Below, one piece after another: positions 4,656 to 18,357 of a stretch of 54,021 nt of DNA. This stretch comes from an uncultured Bacteriovoracaceae bacterium (GTDB lineage Bacteria > Bdellovibrionota > Bacteriovoracia > Bacteriovoracales > Bacteriovoracaceae). The DNA lies in NCBI GenBank assembly GCA_938034385.1, contig CALHLC010000021.1, positions 1-54,021 of the forward strand, in the 5' to 3' direction. Position 1 is the stretch's first letter; the number at the start of each line of letters is the position of its first letter. Below the pieces are notes generated by a model. It was not told the origin of the DNA, ran no database searches, and saw only the letters and a list, made by a program, of their open reading frames with translations. Both the position numbers and the translations under genes were made by a program.

Positions 4656-5933
4656 ATGGAATCAATACCTAAAGTTACACATCTAGAAATGTTGGCGCTT
4701 GGAGCTTTGTTAAAGAAGAAAGATTTGCCTATCTATCAGTTAATCCATGATTTATGGGGCGATAGTGTACGAGTTAATTGGCCAGGCCAACATGTTACGT
4801 TCATGTTTAATCAAAAAGATATTCAAGAAGTATTAGTTTCCAAAGCAAATCATTTTCATAAAGAAGATGGTTATAAATATTTACGTGGACTCTTGGGTAA
4901 TGGGCTTTTATTAAGTGAAGATCAAGTCTGGAAAAAGAATCGAAAACTTATGAATAAATCATTTTCAAAGTCTATGATGATGAATTTTTATCGTGATGAA
5001 ATTTGTGAGTTAACCGATCAAGTATTGAATTCATTAAGTTCTGGGGAGTTATATATAGATGACATTTTCTCAGATCTTACTTTAAAAATTATTATAAAGA
5101 TTTTTCTAGGTGTCGAGGTTCCAGATCTAAATATTATAAAAAATGCTATGAATCTTGAGCTAGAGAGATCAGACATTAAGATGAAAAGCTTGTTTGGTAT
5201 TCCTGATTTTTTACCAACAAAGAAAAATTTAAAAACAAATCATGCATTGAGAAAATTTGATCAATTAGTTTTAGGAATATTGGAAGATAAGAAATCTGAT
5301 AATCTATTAACTCAATTTAAATCAGAGCTTATCAATGATGAAATTAGTAAACAGGAAATAGTAGATGAAATAAAAACTCTTCTTCTTGCTGGCCATGAGA
5401 CAACATCAAACTTGTTGACTTGGAGCTTATATCATTTGAGTCAAAACCTGGAAGTTTTAAGTAAGTATAAAGAGGACTTTGATGAAGAGTATCTTGAAGC
5501 GATTTTAAAAGAATCAATGCGCTTAAGTCCTCCTATACCAGTGATAGCCAGGCAATGTATAAAAGATGTTTGTATTGGAAATAAGGAAATTAAATCTGGA
5601 GATAAAATAGCTTTAACTCAATTTGTAACTCATAAAGATAAACGTTATTGGGAAAAGTCTTCACAATTTTATCCTGAGAGGTTTTTGAATATAAAAAAGG
5701 TGAATTCCTCTGGGATTAGATATTTTCCTTTTGGAGCAGGGATGAGAATGTGCATAGGAGATAAATTTGCCATGATGGAGGCAAAAATCATTTTGCAAAC
5801 GTTTTTAACTCAATTTGATTATGAAATTTTAGATTTTATTAATGAGAGTCATCATTTTGTTTTGAAACCTGAAAAAGGATTAAGAGTGAATTTAAAGAAG
5901 CAATCAGAAAGCTTAGTTAAGTTGAGGTTCTAA
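4656..5933 (+). CDS. Cytochrome P450
   Basis: A complete 425-residue soluble bacterial P450. The I-helix oxygen-binding motif is AGHETT (245-250), the ExxR pair is Glu286/Arg289, PERF lies at 340-343, and the haem-ligand loop FPFGAGMRMCIG places the thiolate at Cys366. The family inserts one oxygen atom into an organic substrate using electrons from ferredoxin or flavodoxin partners; no such partner is encoded nearby. The sequence resembles CYP102/CYP4-like fatty-acid hydroxylases more than class I camphor-type enzymes, but the substrate cannot be deduced. The start has an excellent AGGAGG seven bases upstream. Its 3' end overlaps the convergent TetR gene by 21 bp, which makes this regulator a candidate controller. 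Confidence 0.95.
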   Translation: MESIPKVTHLEMLALGALLKKKDLPIYQLIHDLWGDSVRVNWPGQHVTFMFNQKDIQEVLVSKANHFHKEDGYKYLRGLLGNGLLLSEDQVWKKNRKLMNKSFSKSMMMNFYRDEICELTDQVLNSLSSGELYIDDIFSDLTLKIIIKIFLGVEVPDLNIIKNAMNLELERSDIKMKSLFGIPDFLPTKKNLKTNHALRKFDQLVLGILEDKKSDNLLTQFKSELINDEISKQEIVDEIKTLLLAGHETTSNLLTWSLYHLSQNLEVLSKYKEDFDEEYLEAILKESMRLSPPIPVIARQCIKDVCIGNKEIKSGDKIALTQFVTHKDKRYWEKSSQFYPERFLNIKKVNSSGIRYFPFGAGMRMCIGDKFAMMEAKIILQTFLTQFDYEILDFINESHHFVLKPEKGLRVNLKKQSESLVKLRF

Positions 5934-6530
5934 ATAAGATAGAATCGCAATCTTTAGTTCTCTTTGAATAATAGAGTGATCAAATTTAATTTCTTGATAA
6001 AAAATAGAAGAAACAATTGAGTATCTTACCATTTGAATAACTAATAATAACTTCACATCTAAGTCTGGATGTTTAACATGTGGGAAGACATTACTTTTTA
6101 AAATATCAATAAAGATAAGATCAAATTTCTCTATGAGACTTGTATTTTGAAAATCAAAGATAGTAGAAGCAAAAAGTTTAACGATCTTTTTTCTTTTTAA
6201 ATTATGTTTATAAGTAAAATCAATAAACTTATCAATTTTTTCTTCTGGAGAGCAATCAGCGACTGAATGCAAAACATTGGTGAAAAACTTAGCTTCTTGA
6301 TTGATGAACACTTTTAAGACCATTTGGAGAACAGAGTTTTTATTAGGGAAATATTGATAAAGAGAAGAAATATTAACGCCGGCCCTATCTGCGATTTTAT
6401 TGGTTGTAAGAGAATCTAGTTTATCATGCTCTATAAACTCCTCAGTTGCCTGCAAAATAGCATCTACTGTCTCTACAGATCTTCTTTGGGTCGCTATTTT
6501 TTTAGGGTCTAAATCTTCTTTTTTTGCCAT
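5913..6530 (-). CDS. TetR-family transcriptional regulator
   Basis: A 205-residue regulator. The N-terminal 60 residues form the TetR helix-turn-helix: ATQRRSVETVDAILQATEEF, then TTNKIADRAGVNISSLYQYF, matching the family pattern TxxxIAxxAGVSxGxLYxYF. The remainder is an alpha-helical ligand domain without recognisable specificity. TetR proteins usually repress themselves and a neighbour. The candidates are the divergent alpha/beta hydrolase gene 86 bp away and the convergent P450. The last 21 bp overlap the P450 3' end, so transcripts of the two genes are mutually antisense there. Confidence 0.92.
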   Translation of the reverse strand: MAKKEDLDPKKIATQRRSVETVDAILQATEEFIEHDKLDSLTTNKIADRAGVNISSLYQYFPNKNSVLQMVLKVFINQEAKFFTNVLHSVADCSPEEKIDKFIDFTYKHNLKRKKIVKLFASTIFDFQNTSLIEKFDLIFIDILKSNVFPHVKHPDLDVKLLLVIQMVRYSIVSSIFYQEIKFDHSIIQRELKIAILSYLEPQLN

Positions 6531-11595: not shown

Positions 11596-13017
11596 TTACT
11601 TTCTTTTCGTTTTCTTCTTTTTCTTTTTAGCAAAAGTTTTAGCTTTAGATGCTTCTTTATCTGACATGATCTTAGTTAGTTTTTCACTTACATCATTTAG
11701 TTCTTCGATAAGTTTCTTCTTAACTTTTGCTGGGCTTTTCACGATCGCTTCATAATCTTTAAGCTTTTTCTTATCTTCCTTGACGTATAGTTCTCTTTTT
11801 CCTACCTCTTCCTTAGTCATTCTATAAATGGCCATATCAGCAAGGTATTCAGCGTATTTAAACTTCTTTTTTCCAAGGTATTCTATATAGGCTGCTCTGT
11901 TAGCCTTCTTTTCTGCTTGAGCATACTGTTTTTCTTTAATAAATCTAATGATTTCACTATTCTTAATGATATTAGTTTTACAATCTATAATTAATAGCTC
12001 GTATCTTCTTTTAACAACTTTTAATCTTTGAGCTGTGAAGAGCTGGATAATTTCTTCAGCTTTTTTAAATATTTTTACACCTCGTTCACTAATGAGAGTG
12101 TAATTAGGGGTTACAGAACCTTTCGCTCCAAGTTTCGTGCGAGCATCTTCTAGAGACAAAGACTTACCTCGTTTAAATAGAAGCTCTATCTCAATAGTAT
12201 TATCGACTGTCGAGTCGATATAATCTTTGATTAAATCTTTATCAATCATTTTATTTAGATGTCTATAAATTCTTTTAGCATCCCATCCTTTAGGAAGTTC
12301 AGTAATATAGAGTGATGAGCCTCTCTCTTCTATACCAAGATGAAAAATAATTTTGCCACCTTTTTCAACTTCAACTGGGAGAGTATAATTTCTAACCCAT
12401 GGTTTAAGCTTTGAGGGTTTGCCTTTTTCTATACACGAAATCATTGATTTCACGATGTCTTTATGATTAAAGCTTGGAATAACTGAAGAAAATCCGGTTC
12501 CAATTCCTTCAGCACCATTTAGAAGCATGATAGGTAGTTTGGGCAATAATCCAAGAGGCTCCAGTTCTCTTTCATCATAATTAGGAACCATTTCTAATTG
12601 ATTCATATCATCAAACAATAGTAGTTCGGCGGTCTTTCCCATCCGACATTCAATATACCTTCCGGCTGCAGCTTGGGTTTCCATTCTTTCACCGAAATAC
12701 CCTTTTTTATCAATGAGTGGATAGTTATTAGAAAAGGTATAATCTTGAGCCATATTAACGATAGAAGTTTCAATTGATGCTGGACCGTGAGGATGAAGAG
12801 TTAAAACTAAACCAGTAAGTCCTGTTACTTTTACTAGACCTTTATTTCTATTTTTAAAAAGTGTATAGAGAATTCTTCTTTGAGATGGCTTTAGTCCATC
12901 TTGAAGGTAGGGGATTGCTCTATCCATGAGAGTATAGATTTGATAAGTCCTATATTCACTTTTAACAACCTTCTCAAGTGAGACTGTCTTTAATTCATTT
13001 AAATTTATTTCATCCAT
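11596..13017 (-). CDS. parC: Short type IIA topoisomerase A subunit (ParC/GyrA-like, no C-terminal pinwheel)
   Basis: At 473 residues this is the breakage-reunion core only. It has GLKPSQRRIL near the N-terminus, HPHGPASIETSIVNMAQ, and the catalytic tyrosine in AAAGRYIECRM (Tyr121, with the preceding Arg). The tower and coiled-coil region follows and ends in a Lys-rich tail, so the roughly 300-residue beta-pinwheel of GyrA/ParC is missing. Chlamydia carries a second, similarly shortened ParC beside a short ParE. Together with the B subunit encoded 15 bp upstream it should form a heterotetramer that passes one duplex through another. Lack of the wrapping domain argues against gyrase-type supercoiling and for decatenation or relaxation. 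Whether it is the only topoisomerase IV in this genome cannot be seen here. Confidence 0.88.
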   Translation of the reverse strand: MDEINLNELKTVSLEKVVKSEYRTYQIYTLMDRAIPYLQDGLKPSQRRILYTLFKNRNKGLVKVTGLTGLVLTLHPHGPASIETSIVNMAQDYTFSNNYPLIDKKGYFGERMETQAAAGRYIECRMGKTAELLLFDDMNQLEMVPNYDERELEPLGLLPKLPIMLLNGAEGIGTGFSSVIPSFNHKDIVKSMISCIEKGKPSKLKPWVRNYTLPVEVEKGGKIIFHLGIEERGSSLYITELPKGWDAKRIYRHLNKMIDKDLIKDYIDSTVDNTIEIELLFKRGKSLSLEDARTKLGAKGSVTPNYTLISERGVKIFKKAEEIIQLFTAQRLKVVKRRYELLIIDCKTNIIKNSEIIRFIKEKQYAQAEKKANRAAYIEYLGKKKFKYAEYLADMAIYRMTKEEVGKRELYVKEDKKKLKDYEAIVKSPAKVKKKLIEELNDVSEKLTKIMSDKEASKAKTFAKKKKKKTKRK

Positions 13018-13032
13018 AATTTTTCCGTTTTA

Positions 13033-14973
13033 TTAATCGTCTAATAAAAGATCTTTTCTTAGTTGGGTATCTTTTCCAAAACAAACATGAAGAATATTTT
13101 TACATTTTTTAGCATCTTTTGCTGTAATGATAGTGAAGTCATCTTTTTGAAGAACATGCTTGAAAGCATTTTGACTCATTTCCCCGAGACCTTTATTTCT
13201 TTGTATTTCTTTTATCTTGATACCTTTTTTCTTTTTAATTTTTTCTAGGGCCTCTGGAGATTCTATATATTCCGTTCCTTTATCGGTTACGACCTCAAAA
13301 AGAGGAGCTTTTGTAATTTGAATCATCTTCATTTCAAACATTTCAGGCCAAAAAGAATAAAAGAAATTTGTTAAGAGAGTATTAATATGCCCACCGTCAA
13401 CATCTGAATCGGATAGGAATACGATCTTAGAAAATCTAAGCATACTTGGATCGGCTTTCACTCCAATTGTTAATCCAACTGAAGCCATGATATTTGAAAA
13501 TTCAACATTATCTAAAACATCTTTTAACGTTGCTTGAGAAACATTCATCGGCTTACCACGTAGGGCGATTCCACCTTGGTTAAGCTTATCACGAGCAGAT
13601 CGTAGACCTCCAATTGCTGAATCTCCCTCACAAATAAAAAGAGTACATTCAGATCTATCTTTTCTAGCGTTAGCATCTAAAAGTTTCTCTATTCTTTGCT
13701 TTTTTGCTTTCTTTCCTTGCTTTGAAGCATCTTTTAAATCTTGAAAGTGCGTTCTAGTCTTTGCTCTTTGTATAATGAGTTCTAAATATTCAGGATGCTT
13801 TTTATAGAATTTCTTAATATTTTTTGTGACAAAAGCATCTATTGCTTTTTCAAGTTGATTATCTCTAACTAACTTTCTTTTTGTTTGAGACTCAAACCTT
13901 GGATTAGGCATAACTATACCTATAATAAATGTTAGGCCTTGTAAGATATCATTATCATTAACTGTGACTTTTTCTTTCTTAGCGGCTCTGGCAAGTTTAT
14001 CTTTAATATGATTAATGAAATGTCTTTTAATTCTATCGTTATGAAATCCTCCATCAAAAGTAGGAGTTGAGTTAACAAATGAGATGAATTTTTCTCTATC
14101 ATCTGATTTTTTATCTACAACTAAAGCAACGGTCATATCAATAAGACCTTTTACTTTTTTCTTTTTAGCATTTAGTGTTTCATATTTATGAGCAACAACT
14201 CCAAATTCATAAGCAGATTTAGGGTTTATTCTATGAGCAAGTTCTAAAAGGCCTTTCTTGTAAAAATGAACTTCTTTATTAAAGATAAATTTTAGCCCTG
14301 GATTATTATAAGCAAGATCAATAATTCTTTTCCTTAAAAGTTCTTTATCAATTTTGGGGTTTTTATAAACTTCTTTAGCTAGCTTTACTTTGATTTTTAC
14401 TCCAGCTGCTCCTCGAAATGCTTTTGCTTTAGATTTTTTTGTTTTTAAGGCACCGTTCGTAAAAGTATAAGTCTGCTCTTTTTTAGAATTGTGATGCTTT
14501 ACCGTAGCTTCAAATAGATCTGAAGTTAAACATGTTGCTGCAGCTCCTAGTCCATTTTGACCTAGAGTTCTAAAAAGGAATCCTTTAGAGTCTGTTTCTT
14601 CATCTTTAAACTTTGAACCAGTCCTAAACTCTGTATAGACCTGCGAAACTTTTGTAAGAGGAAATCCAATTCCATTATCTGCAATAGTAACAGTTTGGCA
14701 GTCATCAGATAAATCTATTTTAATTTCTGAAACATGATTTCTATAAAACTCGTCTATACAATTATCTAGGATTTCCTCTATCGCTTTTGATTTTGCTTGA
14801 TGGAATTGAACAGTCTGGAACTTTACACCTTTACTGGTATAGAGATAAGTATCAAGTTCTTCAATGTCATTACTTCCAAAAACAAGTGTTACTCTGTTTC
14901 TACAATGCCATCGTTGATCTTTACTCTCAATTTCAGCTTCTTTTATTTTTTTGCTTCTTTTACTTGTTGCCAT
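13033..14973 (-). CDS. parE: Type IIA topoisomerase B subunit (ParE/GyrB-like)
   Basis: A 646-residue GHKL ATPase plus TOPRIM protein. The ATP site shows EEILDNCIDE (66-75), IADNGIGF (about 97-104) and GQNGLGAAAT. The TOPRIM metal centre is visible as LFICEGDSA and FLSDSDVDGGH. The end, RNKGLGEMSQ and later, matches ParE/GyrB. It lacks the Enterobacterial GyrB insert. Its start ATG has AGGAAGAG upstream. It is followed 15 bp later by the A subunit, so the two are co-transcribed. ATP binding closes the dimer clamp on the transported DNA segment. The pair is closer in size and architecture to the small chlamydial ParE/ParC than to canonical ParE/ParC, based on length and motif spacing only. Confidence 0.92.
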   Translation of the reverse strand: MATSKRSKKIKEAEIESKDQRWHCRNRVTLVFGSNDIEELDTYLYTSKGVKFQTVQFHQAKSKAIEEILDNCIDEFYRNHVSEIKIDLSDDCQTVTIADNGIGFPLTKVSQVYTEFRTGSKFKDEETDSKGFLFRTLGQNGLGAAATCLTSDLFEATVKHHNSKKEQTYTFTNGALKTKKSKAKAFRGAAGVKIKVKLAKEVYKNPKIDKELLRKRIIDLAYNNPGLKFIFNKEVHFYKKGLLELAHRINPKSAYEFGVVAHKYETLNAKKKKVKGLIDMTVALVVDKKSDDREKFISFVNSTPTFDGGFHNDRIKRHFINHIKDKLARAAKKEKVTVNDNDILQGLTFIIGIVMPNPRFESQTKRKLVRDNQLEKAIDAFVTKNIKKFYKKHPEYLELIIQRAKTRTHFQDLKDASKQGKKAKKQRIEKLLDANARKDRSECTLFICEGDSAIGGLRSARDKLNQGGIALRGKPMNVSQATLKDVLDNVEFSNIMASVGLTIGVKADPSMLRFSKIVFLSDSDVDGGHINTLLTNFFYSFWPEMFEMKMIQITKAPLFEVVTDKGTEYIESPEALEKIKKKKGIKIKEIQRNKGLGEMSQNAFKHVLQKDDFTIITAKDAKKCKNILHVCFGKDTQLRKDLLLDD

Positions 14974-15093: not shown

Positions 15094-15702
15094 GTGAAGT
15101 ATTTATTTTTATTGATAATCCCGATAGTCGAGTTAGTTGCTCTGGATTTAGACACTTTTTTGACGAAAGAGTTAGAAATTGCCAAAGTTTTTTCAAAAAC
15201 CAATCTTCGCTACTTAAAAGATGGAAAAAATATAATAAAAACAGAAGTTACATCTCCGAAGAAATCGTTTCAAAAAATTTCAGAAAAAATTATTTTATTT
15301 CATAAAAAGCAATGTTCATCGGTGGTTTCAACGATAGGGCAGTATGAAAACTATTCTAATTTTTTTGATTTTGTAAATAAGAGTGAATATAAAAATAACC
15401 ATATTTATTTAAAGATTAAGTTCTTTCTTTTGGCCTATGAGTTCCCAATTAATGTCAAAATTGATCGTTTAAGTAGTGCCAAAGCTTATCCGTTTACTTT
15501 TAACACTGGATTTCTTGATGGTTTGCAAGGTATTCTTAATATAAAGGAATTTAATAATAGATGTTTGATACATTTTTCTATGGATTGGGAAGGAAGGTAT
15601 ACTGGGATGTCTAATTTTATTTTAGAAAATTTTTTATACACCATTGCTAAATATGGGATGAGAAAAATGTTATTAATCACTGGACATGGACGGACATATT
15701 AA
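15094..15702 (+). CDS. Exported SRPBCC/START-like protein
   Basis: A 202-residue protein starting at GTG with AAGGA nine bases upstream, and a signal peptide (about 1-16). The remainder resembles the helix-grip (SRPBCC, COQ10-like) fold: a long loop and antiparallel strands with alternating hydrophobics, LKIKFFLLAYEFPINVKI, then GLQGILNIKEF, LIHFSMDWEGR, and a C-terminal amphipathic helix (FILENFLYTIAKYGMRKM). That order is typical of polyketide-cyclase/dehydrase-like lipid-binding proteins. The fold assignment is tentative. The stop TAA is directly followed by the ATG of the FHA-RDD gene, so translation is probably coupled and the product may act in the same envelope process. Confidence 0.6.
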   Translation: MKYLFLLIIPIVELVALDLDTFLTKELEIAKVFSKTNLRYLKDGKNIIKTEVTSPKKSFQKISEKIILFHKKQCSSVVSTIGQYENYSNFFDFVNKSEYKNNHIYLKIKFFLLAYEFPINVKIDRLSSAKAYPFTFNTGFLDGLQGILNIKEFNNRCLIHFSMDWEGRYTGMSNFILENFLYTIAKYGMRKMLLITGHGRTY

Positions 15703-18357
15703 ATGCAAGAGTTATTAGGTTATTTACTTTCGTTTGAAGGCTATGAAGAAAAATTTAAGTTACAAGATGTAGCTTCAATTGGTCGGATGGACCAAAATAT
15801 AAATCTCGATGTAGATGGAATAGATTTTCGTCACTGCACTTTTTATTTTCAAGACAATGTTTTATCAGTCAAAGATCATGATAGTTCAACTGGAACATTT
15901 GTAAATAATAAGAAAATTTCAAGTGAAGAGATGGTGATTCTGTTTCCAGATGATGTATTGAGAGTTGGAAATTTAAAAGTAGGGTTTGAGCCAATAGAGA
16001 AGCCTGAAGCGTCTATATTGCCTTCTGTTCCTATTCTTGAAGAAGCGATTGAGAAAAAAGTTAGCAAGGAAGAGACTCTTGCTGATTTTAGTAATGAGAC
16101 TATGCCACAAATTATGTCTTTTGAAGACCTGAAAAAGGATTCTCAAAAACAAGATGATTTAATTGAAAACCCGGATTTGGATGAGGCTTTCAAGTCTTTT
16201 CCTGAACCTTTTGATTCAAGTGAGAATCTAGAGCCTTTAGCCTTAGAAAACACTGACTTGCCGGCAGAAGTTCTTCCGGAAATTGAAACAAACAATGATG
16301 CTCTAGCTGATTTACCTCCTTTAACTCCACCCGATCCTGTCTCTCTAAAAGAAATTGATAAAATGAGAGCTGAAGCTAGTGTTGAGCCAAATCTTGTACC
16401 ACCCCTTCCAAAGGAAGCTACTAGTACAAGTATAGATGTTACAGATTTAAGTAATACCGAAATACGTGATGGCTTTGAATTTTCTGAATTAAATACAACT
16501 GAGTTTGAACATACTTCTGCTAATAAATCTTTTGTGACTAACACAGTCCAATTCACTTCAGATAAAGCAAAGGAAAAACTTGCGGTTTTTAAAGGGTTGT
16601 TTTCTAAATTTGGTAAGAAGAAAGAACCAATCATAGAAGTAGATCCTACGCAAGTAAGTGTTTCTGTTGATTTAGATAGTACGGGGTTAATTGATAATTC
16701 TAAATTCAGAAAGATTAATAGAGCAAGGTTTAAAGAAGAGGTCTTAAAAAGCGGAATTATATTTCCAGTTAGATTGTTATCCTTAATTATAGATATTAAT
16801 CTCAGTATTATTTTAGGTTATATTTTAACTCAATCAGGAATTACTCTAGATTTTATAGCAACCCCAATTAAAGGACTTTTTAGTTTCTTATTTGGAGAAA
16901 AATTTGGAGGTTTTGGATATTATGTAGGAATCTTTTGTCTTTTAAAAATCATCTCTAATATTATTTTTAGAAGATCTTTAGGTCAATTGGTCTCTTTAGT
17001 TTTTGCAGAGAAAAATAAGAAGGGACACCTAAGGGCCCTAGGCCGAAGCTTTCTAGGATTTATTCTTGGACCTTTGATGATTTTTGATCTGCCAGGATTT
17101 CTATCTAAATCTACGGCTAAAGAAGTATTACTTTTATCACGATTTTATAGTACTTCTCATATGTTTTCTTTTCTAAGTGCACTTGCATTTTCTATTATAA
17201 CTGGTTTCTTTGCTTATTACTTACCAGTAATGAATGGAAGTGAAGCAAAACTTACAAATTTTCAATTTAAAACAGTGAAGTTTACCGAATCAGCAGATGT
17301 AAATGATATTACCGTCTCTAATTACTTTAATATGATTCAACCATCTCATAAGAAAACATTTTTAAAGTATCCTTATTTTAAAACAAAAAAGAGTAAGAAG
17401 AATAGAAAGTATTATCCTCAAATTAGAGTCTATTATCCAAAGAAGAAATTATATGTTGATTTTGAAAAGGTCGAACCTTTTAACTTTAAGAATCTATTAA
17501 ATTCAGCAAAATCTACTAATCCTCTTTTTGCTTCTCAATATCCAGAAGTAAATGCTCATTTGAGCAACGAAAAGTTTGATAAGATAAAGTTTGTTGAAGA
17601 GCTAAAAAAGCTATTAAAAGCTTCATTAGAGCTTGATACTTCTAAGACTCTTAATCACATTTTAACTTATGGCCCTTTTGTAAAAGGATATGTTGATTTA
17701 AGAGGGAATTTATCAAATGCTATAGGACGAGATATAGAAGAAATTAGTTTTTTTAATATTGGTGGGCGAGACTTTTTAAAAGTTAAGGCCCAAGATGGGA
17801 AGTTTGCAGCGGATAAAACTAGAGAAGAGTATTTATTGAGCTTAGATAATGAAAAGGGGCTTATCTACAAGTTCTTTTTTGAAAACCTTGGCTCAAGAGC
17901 TGGTGGTGACATTTCAAAGTTTTATAATGCCTTTCTCGATAATCTTATATGGCAGGAAGGAACCTTTACTGAGCTGAAAGATAAAGCAGAAGCCTATGAT
18001 ATTATTGATTACTTCTTAAAACCAACTGATCGAGCTCATAGTGCTGAAGATCATGATAAAATCTTTAGTTTTTATTTTAAAATGGCTAAGCGATTAGTTA
18101 GAGCTAAGAACGAAAGATTAAAAAAAGATTTTATAGATAAGCATGAAAGTTTTCTTAAGATGATCACCGGTTTAAATAATATGGAAAAAAATAAGTCTAA
18201 TTCACTTGAGAGTAAATTTAAGCCACTTTTATCAAAGAACCTTGAACTCTTAGATGCTTTTAAAAATAAGAAATTAGAGTTTTTTCAAATACCTCTTAAA
18301 AAGCGTGTAGTAAAAAAACCTGTAGAAGAAGAACCAGCACAAGAACCTCAAGAGTAG
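15703..18357 (+). CDS. FHA-RDD fusion membrane protein
   Basis: An 884-residue, multidomain protein. Residues 20-95 are a forkhead-associated domain (SIGR, then the SSTGTFVNN loop) that binds phosphothreonine peptides. Residues 100-340 are an acidic, proline-rich linker. Residues about 342-510 contain the RDD-type membrane region (ISGIIFPVR-like entry with the Arg/Asp pattern LLSLIIDIN, and SLGQLV). The last 370 residues are soluble, Lys-rich and unrecognised. FHA next to RDD implies a membrane protein recruited or switched by a Ser/Thr kinase; the kinase encoded at 23062 is a candidate. It begins at the base after the upstream stop and is followed eight bases later by uppP, which suggests an envelope-linked operon. 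Confidence 0.85.
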   Translation: MQELLGYLLSFEGYEEKFKLQDVASIGRMDQNINLDVDGIDFRHCTFYFQDNVLSVKDHDSSTGTFVNNKKISSEEMVILFPDDVLRVGNLKVGFEPIEKPEASILPSVPILEEAIEKKVSKEETLADFSNETMPQIMSFEDLKKDSQKQDDLIENPDLDEAFKSFPEPFDSSENLEPLALENTDLPAEVLPEIETNNDALADLPPLTPPDPVSLKEIDKMRAEASVEPNLVPPLPKEATSTSIDVTDLSNTEIRDGFEFSELNTTEFEHTSANKSFVTNTVQFTSDKAKEKLAVFKGLFSKFGKKKEPIIEVDPTQVSVSVDLDSTGLIDNSKFRKINRARFKEEVLKSGIIFPVRLLSLIIDINLSIILGYILTQSGITLDFIATPIKGLFSFLFGEKFGGFGYYVGIFCLLKIISNIIFRRSLGQLVSLVFAEKNKKGHLRALGRSFLGFILGPLMIFDLPGFLSKSTAKEVLLLSRFYSTSHMFSFLSALAFSIITGFFAYYLPVMNGSEAKLTNFQFKTVKFTESADVNDITVSNYFNMIQPSHKKTFLKYPYFKTKKSKKNRKYYPQIRVYYPKKKLYVDFEKVEPFNFKNLLNSAKSTNPLFASQYPEVNAHLSNEKFDKIKFVEELKKLLKASLELDTSKTLNHILTYGPFVKGYVDLRGNLSNAIGRDIEEISFFNIGGRDFLKVKAQDGKFAADKTREEYLLSLDNEKGLIYKFFFENLGSRAGGDISKFYNAFLDNLIWQEGTFTELKDKAEAYDIIDYFLKPTDRAHSAEDHDKIFSFYFKMAKRLVRAKNERLKKDFIDKHESFLKMITGLNNMEKNKSNSLESKFKPLLSKNLELLDAFKNKKLEFFQIPLKKRVVKKPVEEEPAQEPQE

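Follow-up and report, generated by a model that had tools for sequence, protein, structure and literature searches.

A short type IIA topoisomerase pair of the predatory order Bacteriovoracales, a candidate decatenase from the phage and eukaryotic-type side of the family

Introduction

Topoisomerase (topo) IV, formed by ParC and ParE, is usually taken to be the bacterial decatenase. Here, we analyze a two-gene type IIA topoisomerase in a stretch of 54,021 nucleotides (nt) from an uncultured Bacteriovoracaceae bacterium (GenBank assembly GCA_938034385.1, contig CALHLC010000021.1, positions 1 to 54,021, hereafter called the window), in which a short A (breakage-reunion) subunit is encoded directly behind a B (ATPase/Toprim) subunit. 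Based on sequence comparisons, this pair is likely to be a Bacteriovoracales decatenase that stands in for topo IV and was acquired a single time, from a viral or deep lineage outside our sampling.

Among described enzymes, the best-scoring sequences outside the family of the window's pair belong to topo II of T4-type and jumbo phages (gp39/60 plus gp52; RaK2, Pootjesviridae), which likewise consist of a separate B of about 630 to 660 amino acids (aa) and an A of about 440 to 470 aa without the pinwheel C-terminal domain (CTD). However, identity to these enzymes is only about 30%, and the host pair falls outside the sampled viral clade and is a chromosomal, order-wide and vertically inherited trait. 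Eukaryotic and giant-virus topo II provide the best Protein Data Bank (PDB) sequence matches of A, lie on the same side of the tree and share the motif NGAEGIGTG, which we observed in viral contigs and take to be a eukaryotic topo II motif as well; in contrast to their fused chain, the host enzyme is split over two open reading frames (ORFs), and its union with the giant-virus type is rejected for A. Canonical topo IV resembles the pair in being a second type IIA enzyme beside gyrase and a presumed decatenase, but the host A has no ParC CTD, a joint clade is rejected, and the pair scores far under all NCBIfam cut-offs listed. From DNA gyrase it differs in lacking the GyrA CTD with its GyrA box. 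Finally, the Chlamydiota ParC/ParE (NCBIfam models PRK09630/PRK09631) also form a second pair beside gyrase, with an equally short A in 20 small genomes and LHPHG at the active-site helix, but they belong to a different clade, and their short A was probably truncated from a longer protein.

For the phylum of the host, Bdellovibrionota, passages of PMC11302465 list Bdellovibrio bacteriovorus as having topo VI and argue that this enzyme can take over decatenation in the absence of topo IV; a decatenase specific to one lineage, as proposed here for Bacteriovoracales, would fit this picture. Parts of PMC12642874 concern gyrA in Bacteriovorax, and the main texts of PMC11656739 and PMC5760749 mention topoisomerase and gyrase 0 times. 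Full-text literature searches for topoisomerase together with Bdellovibrio, Bacteriovorax or Halobacteriovorax yielded no description of the pair among the papers listed, although subscription journals could hold one.

The gene pair and its domains

A first-pass annotation of the window, made from the sequence alone, had reported a 473-residue A and a 646-residue B in this region, and both frames and sizes are borne out. The features of the pair are as follows.

13033..14973, minus strand: B (ATPase/Toprim) subunit, 646 aa, first gene of the pair
14773..14775, minus strand: Glu67 of B, aligned with the presumed general base of the GyrB GHKL ATPase
13615..13629, minus strand: Toprim EGDSA of B, residues 449-453
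13393..13410, minus strand: Toprim DSDVDG of B, residues 522-527
13018..13032, minus strand: 15-nt gap between B and A
11596..13017, minus strand: A (breakage-reunion) subunit, 473 aa, without a C-terminal pinwheel domain
12655..12657, minus strand: codon of the catalytic Tyr121 of A, with Arg120 just before it
12494..12519, minus strand: NGAEGIGTG of A, residues 167-175
11599..11661, minus strand: Lys-rich short C-terminal tail of A, residues 453-473, at the place of the CTD in other enzymes

The 15-nt gap, together with the short distance between B and A in relatives, is consistent with a single transcript for both genes.

The A subunit matches the Pfam family DNA_topoisoIV (PF00521) with 290 bits over profile positions 1-431 of 432. 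Arg and Tyr occupy columns 120 and 121 in all 84 aligned A subunits, in line with the earlier assignment of Tyr121 as the catalytic tyrosine. The absence of a pinwheel, also proposed in the first-pass annotation, holds as well: past the column of the window's L440, after the coiled coil, the 16 family members have 30-47 residues, compared with 228-398 in 11 canonical ParC rows, 343-428 in 15 GyrA rows and 1-32 in 12 phage rows, and the AlphaFold model of A (predicted local distance difference test [pLDDT] score, 90) shows a long helix at its end and no beta domain. Purifying selection acts on A: relative to three congeners, the nonsynonymous rate (dN) is 0.03-0.11 and the synonymous rate (dS) a saturated 1.6-2.4, giving dN/dS of about 0.02-0.07, which argues that A is not a chance ORF. 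Family loci that encode a full A carry the motif NGAEGIGTG (NGSEGIGTG in the single exception, L273; numbers with L denote loci and those with G genomes of our sample), as do eight viral contigs, each of which encodes an A-like protein; no gyrase, ParC or chlamydial locus compared at that stage has it. We also considered the quinolone-site residues (A80 and T84 in the window's A) but gave them little weight, as Ala at the first site is also found in chlamydial and some phage rows.

The B subunit is complete, as first annotated, with ATPase, transducer and Toprim domains; the Pfam families DNA_gyraseB, Toprim and HATPase_c score above their cut-offs, DNA_gyraseB_C scores below, and the AlphaFold model has a pLDDT of 85. 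It carries Glu67, which is invariant in the family and phage rows aligned, as well as Asn71, a QTK stretch, EGDSA and DSDVDG. The pair thus has the general hallmarks of a type IIA topoisomerase, namely, Arg/Tyr in A and a GHKL ATPase plus the Toprim pattern E...DxDxDG in B. The C terminus of B varies among relatives: many have Lys/Ala-rich, histone H1-like tails (L271, L023, L269 and L017), reaching 99 residues in L311 and a net charge of +36 in L271, another set has near-neutral tails of 36-40 residues, and the tail is just 12-14 residues long in the window's genus and in L014, L018 and L273. It is tempting to speculate that in some members of the order the Lys/Ala-rich tail takes the place of the absent DNA-wrapping domain.

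Phylogenetic position of the pair

To place both subunits, we built an A tree of 84 rows and 432 columns, chosen from 164 matches plus viral and plasmid loci added later, a B tree of 49 rows and 587 columns, and a wider A tree of 75 rows that adds Planctomycetota and Bacteroidota ParC and more viruses; the combined A+B tree and its tests used 36 of 81 rows. Profile scans of viral contigs with mixed family and phage alignments (A2 and A3) returned at least 80 loci each, whereas scans with single proteins or the family-only alignment (A1) found no relative among these contigs. Of 117 viral contigs, 41 remained once near-copies (above 60%) and those lacking either subunit on the locus had been removed, and 34 of these were used. 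The labels "giant virus" (L274-L281) and "phage" (IMG/VR contigs) were given from sequence and not from names.

The window's family forms one clade (support 100/100). Together with the phage and giant-virus-type rows, it is separated from all bacterial rows at 100/100 in the A and A+B trees and at 100/99 in the wider A tree, and a quick A+B tree of all 81 rows agrees. The same split is found in the B tree (100/99), where two phage rows (L317 and L318) and a plasmid row of the pBS32 type fall on the bacterial side. Within the viral and eukaryotic-type side, the sampled viral clade excludes the family at 99/98 in the A+B tree and at 100/99 in the wider A tree. Under the models used, both subunits therefore appear to group with phage and eukaryotic-type enzymes rather than bacterial ones, without falling inside the sampled viral clade.

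Alternative placements were compared by approximately unbiased (AU) tests, for which group membership followed identity in the case of the canonical, Chlamydiota and giant-virus groups; the jumbo-phage groups and L445 were picked with trees or scores already known. Grouping the family with canonical gyrase and topo IV is rejected (A, p=0.002; B, p=0.0003; A+B, p=3e-15), so that the first-pass annotation's own alternative, both subunits grouping with ordinary proteobacterial ParC/ParE, was not what we found. Nor did its suggestion of kinship with Chlamydia survive: Chlamydiota lie on the bacterial side in the A, B, A+B and wider A trees, and in the last of these their ParC joins that of Planctomycetota and Bacteroidota at 100/100; a clade with the family is rejected for Chlamydiota (A, p=0.0002; B, p=0.017; A+B, p=0.0038) and for the joint Chlamydiota/Planctomycetota/Bacteroidota ParC (p=8e-5). 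Also rejected is a union with giant-virus-type topo II for A (p=5e-5). By descent, the pair would thus be neither chlamydial nor an ordinary topo IV under these models, and it is best read as a deep type IIA lineage that belongs to the phage/eukaryotic-type side.

Profile and structure searches gave a less uniform picture. The best scores on the curated NCBIfam models were 184 bits against a cut-off of 654 for A and 283 against 740 for B, while the host's own GyrA, as a control, reached 1173 against 902. In a PDB sequence search, eukaryotic topo II ranked first for A by a modest margin, both with the window protein and with the family-only profile A1. Three further searches were set aside: a PDB search with alignment A4 favored eukaryotic and phage enzymes, but 30 of the 31 rows of A4 are viral; a Foldseek search of A placed human topo II first but discriminated little, the best 50 rows including gyrase and phage enzymes (template modeling scores, 0.77-0.84); and the PHROG matches (A, 364 bits; B, 476) are no specific sign of a phage, as the host's own GyrA and GyrB score 521 and 553 on the same models, E. 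coli ParC and ParE 416 and 497, and chlamydial proteins 267-449.

Distribution in Bacteriovoracales and beyond

The first-pass annotation had asked whether the genome holds a second enzyme. Indeed, in the host genome (2.67 Mb, 99% complete) PF00521 and PF00204 each match exactly twice, and the only other type IIA pair is a normal gyrase encoded by adjacent genes (GyrA, 832 aa; GyrB, 843 aa). In a search of the order (129 genomes of one family code, 48 genera), the short A was found in 114 genomes, with 56-97% identity outside the window's own genome, and in 70 of the 73 genomes with a completeness of 90% or more and a contamination of 5% or less. The 15 genomes without a match include G022, where B and the beginning of A are present close to the end of a contig. 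Genome G043, which carries the short A, matches Halobacteriovorax marinus SJ, a strain placed by NCBI in Bdellovibrionota, Bacteriovoracia, Bacteriovoracales. The pair is thus an order-wide, vertically inherited trait of Bacteriovoracales. As a separate observation, G078 (L514, L515 and L517) holds two gyrase sets and no short pair, reflecting either a mixed bin or a duplication.

Our phylum sample comprised 290 Bdellovibrionota genomes, 193 of them outside the host family, and the short family A was seen in none of these 193, three weak matches (G185, G251 and G321) being left uninspected. PF00521 matches are single in 178 of them, two or three in nine and absent in six; 175 of the 178 single matches are GyrA-like (E value of 1e-152 or better). 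A second full A in a 713-778-aa frame is present in three genomes of family f2 (G129, G137 and G151), and a second, gyrase-like A in a 946-aa frame in G148 of another family (L080 and L086), whereas the extra PF00521 pieces in the other five of the nine genomes are all nearest to gyrase A and none to the window's family. The first-pass annotation had also raised a special role in chromosome handling during filamentous growth. Genome G189, which we take to be B. bacteriovorus HD100, has a single PF00521 match with a GyrA-like score, suggesting that the pair is not needed for filamentous growth inside prey in general.

Other phyla were represented by 296 Bacteroidota, 398 Pseudomonadota, 294 Planctomycetota and 379 Patescibacteria genomes, with the phylum taken from the title of the central genome. 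At thresholds of 1e-36 (Bacteroidota) and 1e-38 (the other three), which family members and even their fragments passed at 7e-76 or lower with the same query, no family member was found in these 1367 genomes. The matches that were obtained (5, 0, 12 and 0, respectively) all lie in frames of 637-884 aa, and 13 of the 17, those with available loci, fall into the Chlamydiota/Planctomycetota/Bacteroidota ParC clade of the wider A tree.

Origin of the pair

Taken together, the tree position and the distribution would be explained if the order's ancestor gained the pair once and passed it on vertically; the donor would probably be a large virus or some other unsampled lineage. Several observations speak against this reading or blur it. 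With 0.96-1.39 changes per column, the stem of the family is long; its exact point of attachment may be pulled and is less certain than the AU rejections. These tests also reject a joint clade with jumbo-type phages for A (p=0.035) and A+B (p=0.012) and one with the best-scoring viral A (p=0.019). Three genomes of the order, G065, G074 and G078, lack the short A although each is at least 90% complete. Pairwise scores are close: profile A1 reaches at most 161 bits in the PDB (eukaryotic topo II), compared with 145 for bacterial topo IV and 141 for T4/T6 chains; for B, gyrase B leads with 155 bits, phage T6 follows with 151, and bacterial topo IV and eukaryotic topo II reach 144 and 136. Moreover, the active-site helix of A reads HPHG as in bacterial rows, and its longer form LHPHG is found in 15 of 16 family and 15 of 21 chlamydial rows, whereas the phage and giant-virus rows shown differ. 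The mixed scores of B and this helix slightly weaken the overall reading of the pair.

Regarding the source, one special case of the single gain would be that the order's ancestor took its topoisomerase directly from a large phage (T4-like or jumbo), and we consider this a tentative candidate with somewhat below an even chance. IMG/VR viral contigs do encode pairs of the same layout (A of about 430-470 aa without CTD, B of about 630 aa), which give the best scores outside the family (at most 204 bits for A and 285 for B, compared with 144 and 200 for chlamydial proteins), and a union of B with jumbo-type phages is not rejected (p=0.243). Against such a capture stand the position of the family outside the sampled viral clade, the rejection of the jumbo-type union for A and A+B described above, and that of a union with T4-like phages for B (p=0.0007). 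The uncultured viral contigs themselves (L320-L478) hold very diverse B-A pairs, often with a gap of at least 1 kb between B and A.

As another special case concerning the source, the pair may represent a third primary type IIA lineage, sister to or older than the viral/eukaryotic split, that survives as the decatenase of one order. The branching position in four trees and the absence of family members from the 1367 genomes of four other phyla would agree with this, but restriction to a single order of a bacterial phylum is explained more simply by a gain, and the tree is unrooted with a long stem; we regard this origin as unlikely.

Descent from an ordinary bacterial topo IV through loss of the CTD and rapid evolution is more doubtful still, and we give it little credence. 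Such an origin could hide behind the long stem, f2 relatives in the phylum retain a second A of ParC size, and gyrase B is the best PDB match of B. Yet the clade with canonical enzymes is rejected for A, B and A+B, with both subunits in agreement, and the best PDB matches of A are eukaryotic topo II even with the family-only profile.

Least credible of all is a transfer between Bacteriovoracales and Chlamydia of a small ParC/ParE pair, for although A sizes are similar in 20 small Chlamydiota genomes, LHPHG is shared and long chlamydial A proteins score 122-144 bits, above most gyrases, a common clade is rejected for A, B and A+B, and the window protein reaches just 165 and 113 bits on two NCBIfam models (cut-offs, 644 and 598) that match real chlamydial proteins at 890 and 999 bits. 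The size likeness has a history of its own. Among 116 Chlamydiota genomes found via a 16S signature, 73 match the chlamydial ParC model at 1e-50, and their A frames measure 475-502 aa in 20 genomes of 1.0-1.3 Mb (labeled "Chlamydiaceae-like" on the basis of size), 500 aa in G435 and 624-678 aa in 52. Because a longer A is present in 52 of the 73, and short rows fall among long ones in the A tree with moderate support (94/84), the short A of small Chlamydiota is probably a separate truncation. The first-pass annotation was correct that a small, pinwheel-less A exists outside Chlamydiae, but the lack of the CTD in the two groups would be convergent. Among the chlamydial frames compared, short (L229-L248) versus long (L249-L258), two short ones are listed with an internal stop.

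Proposed function

Anatomy, catalytic residues, distribution, tree position under the models used and purifying selection on A are observed, and from these we infer stoichiometry, activities, decatenase role and source of the pair. By analogy, the pair would form an ATP-driven A2B2 type IIA topoisomerase, in which B would bind ATP, close the entry gate and provide the Toprim metal site, while Tyr121 of A would cleave the gate DNA and a second duplex would be passed through. Lacking the pinwheel CTD, the enzyme is expected to relax supercoils and decatenate without negative supercoiling, and negative supercoils would be introduced by the separate gyrase.

If so, an enzyme of the viral/eukaryotic-type side of the family seems to serve a whole predatory order, and it is an unusual candidate for separating bacterial chromosomes. 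Together with the ParC-sized second A in family f2 and the topo VI that passages of PMC11302465 list for B. bacteriovorus, the pair suggests that several solutions exist within one phylum. It also offers a cellular outgroup for the question of the origin of eukaryotic topo II. An annotation as parC/parE would hide a distinct enzyme.

Genomic surroundings

Divergent from the pair lies one further feature.

15094..15702, plus strand: neighboring ORF, 202 aa, function unassigned, no Pfam match

A homologue of this protein with 25-35% identity is found on 10 of the 14 family loci searched, which supports descent of the pair in place; of the four remaining loci, three have short flanks and one ends near A. 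Judged by eye, the 202-aa protein has a hydrophobic start. It is followed in the window by a gene at 15703-18357 (plus strand) for an 884-aa protein with an FHA domain at its N terminus. Elsewhere in the window, a cytochrome P450 gene (4656-5933, plus strand) is convergent with, and overlaps, the gene of a TetR-family regulator (5913-6530, minus strand).

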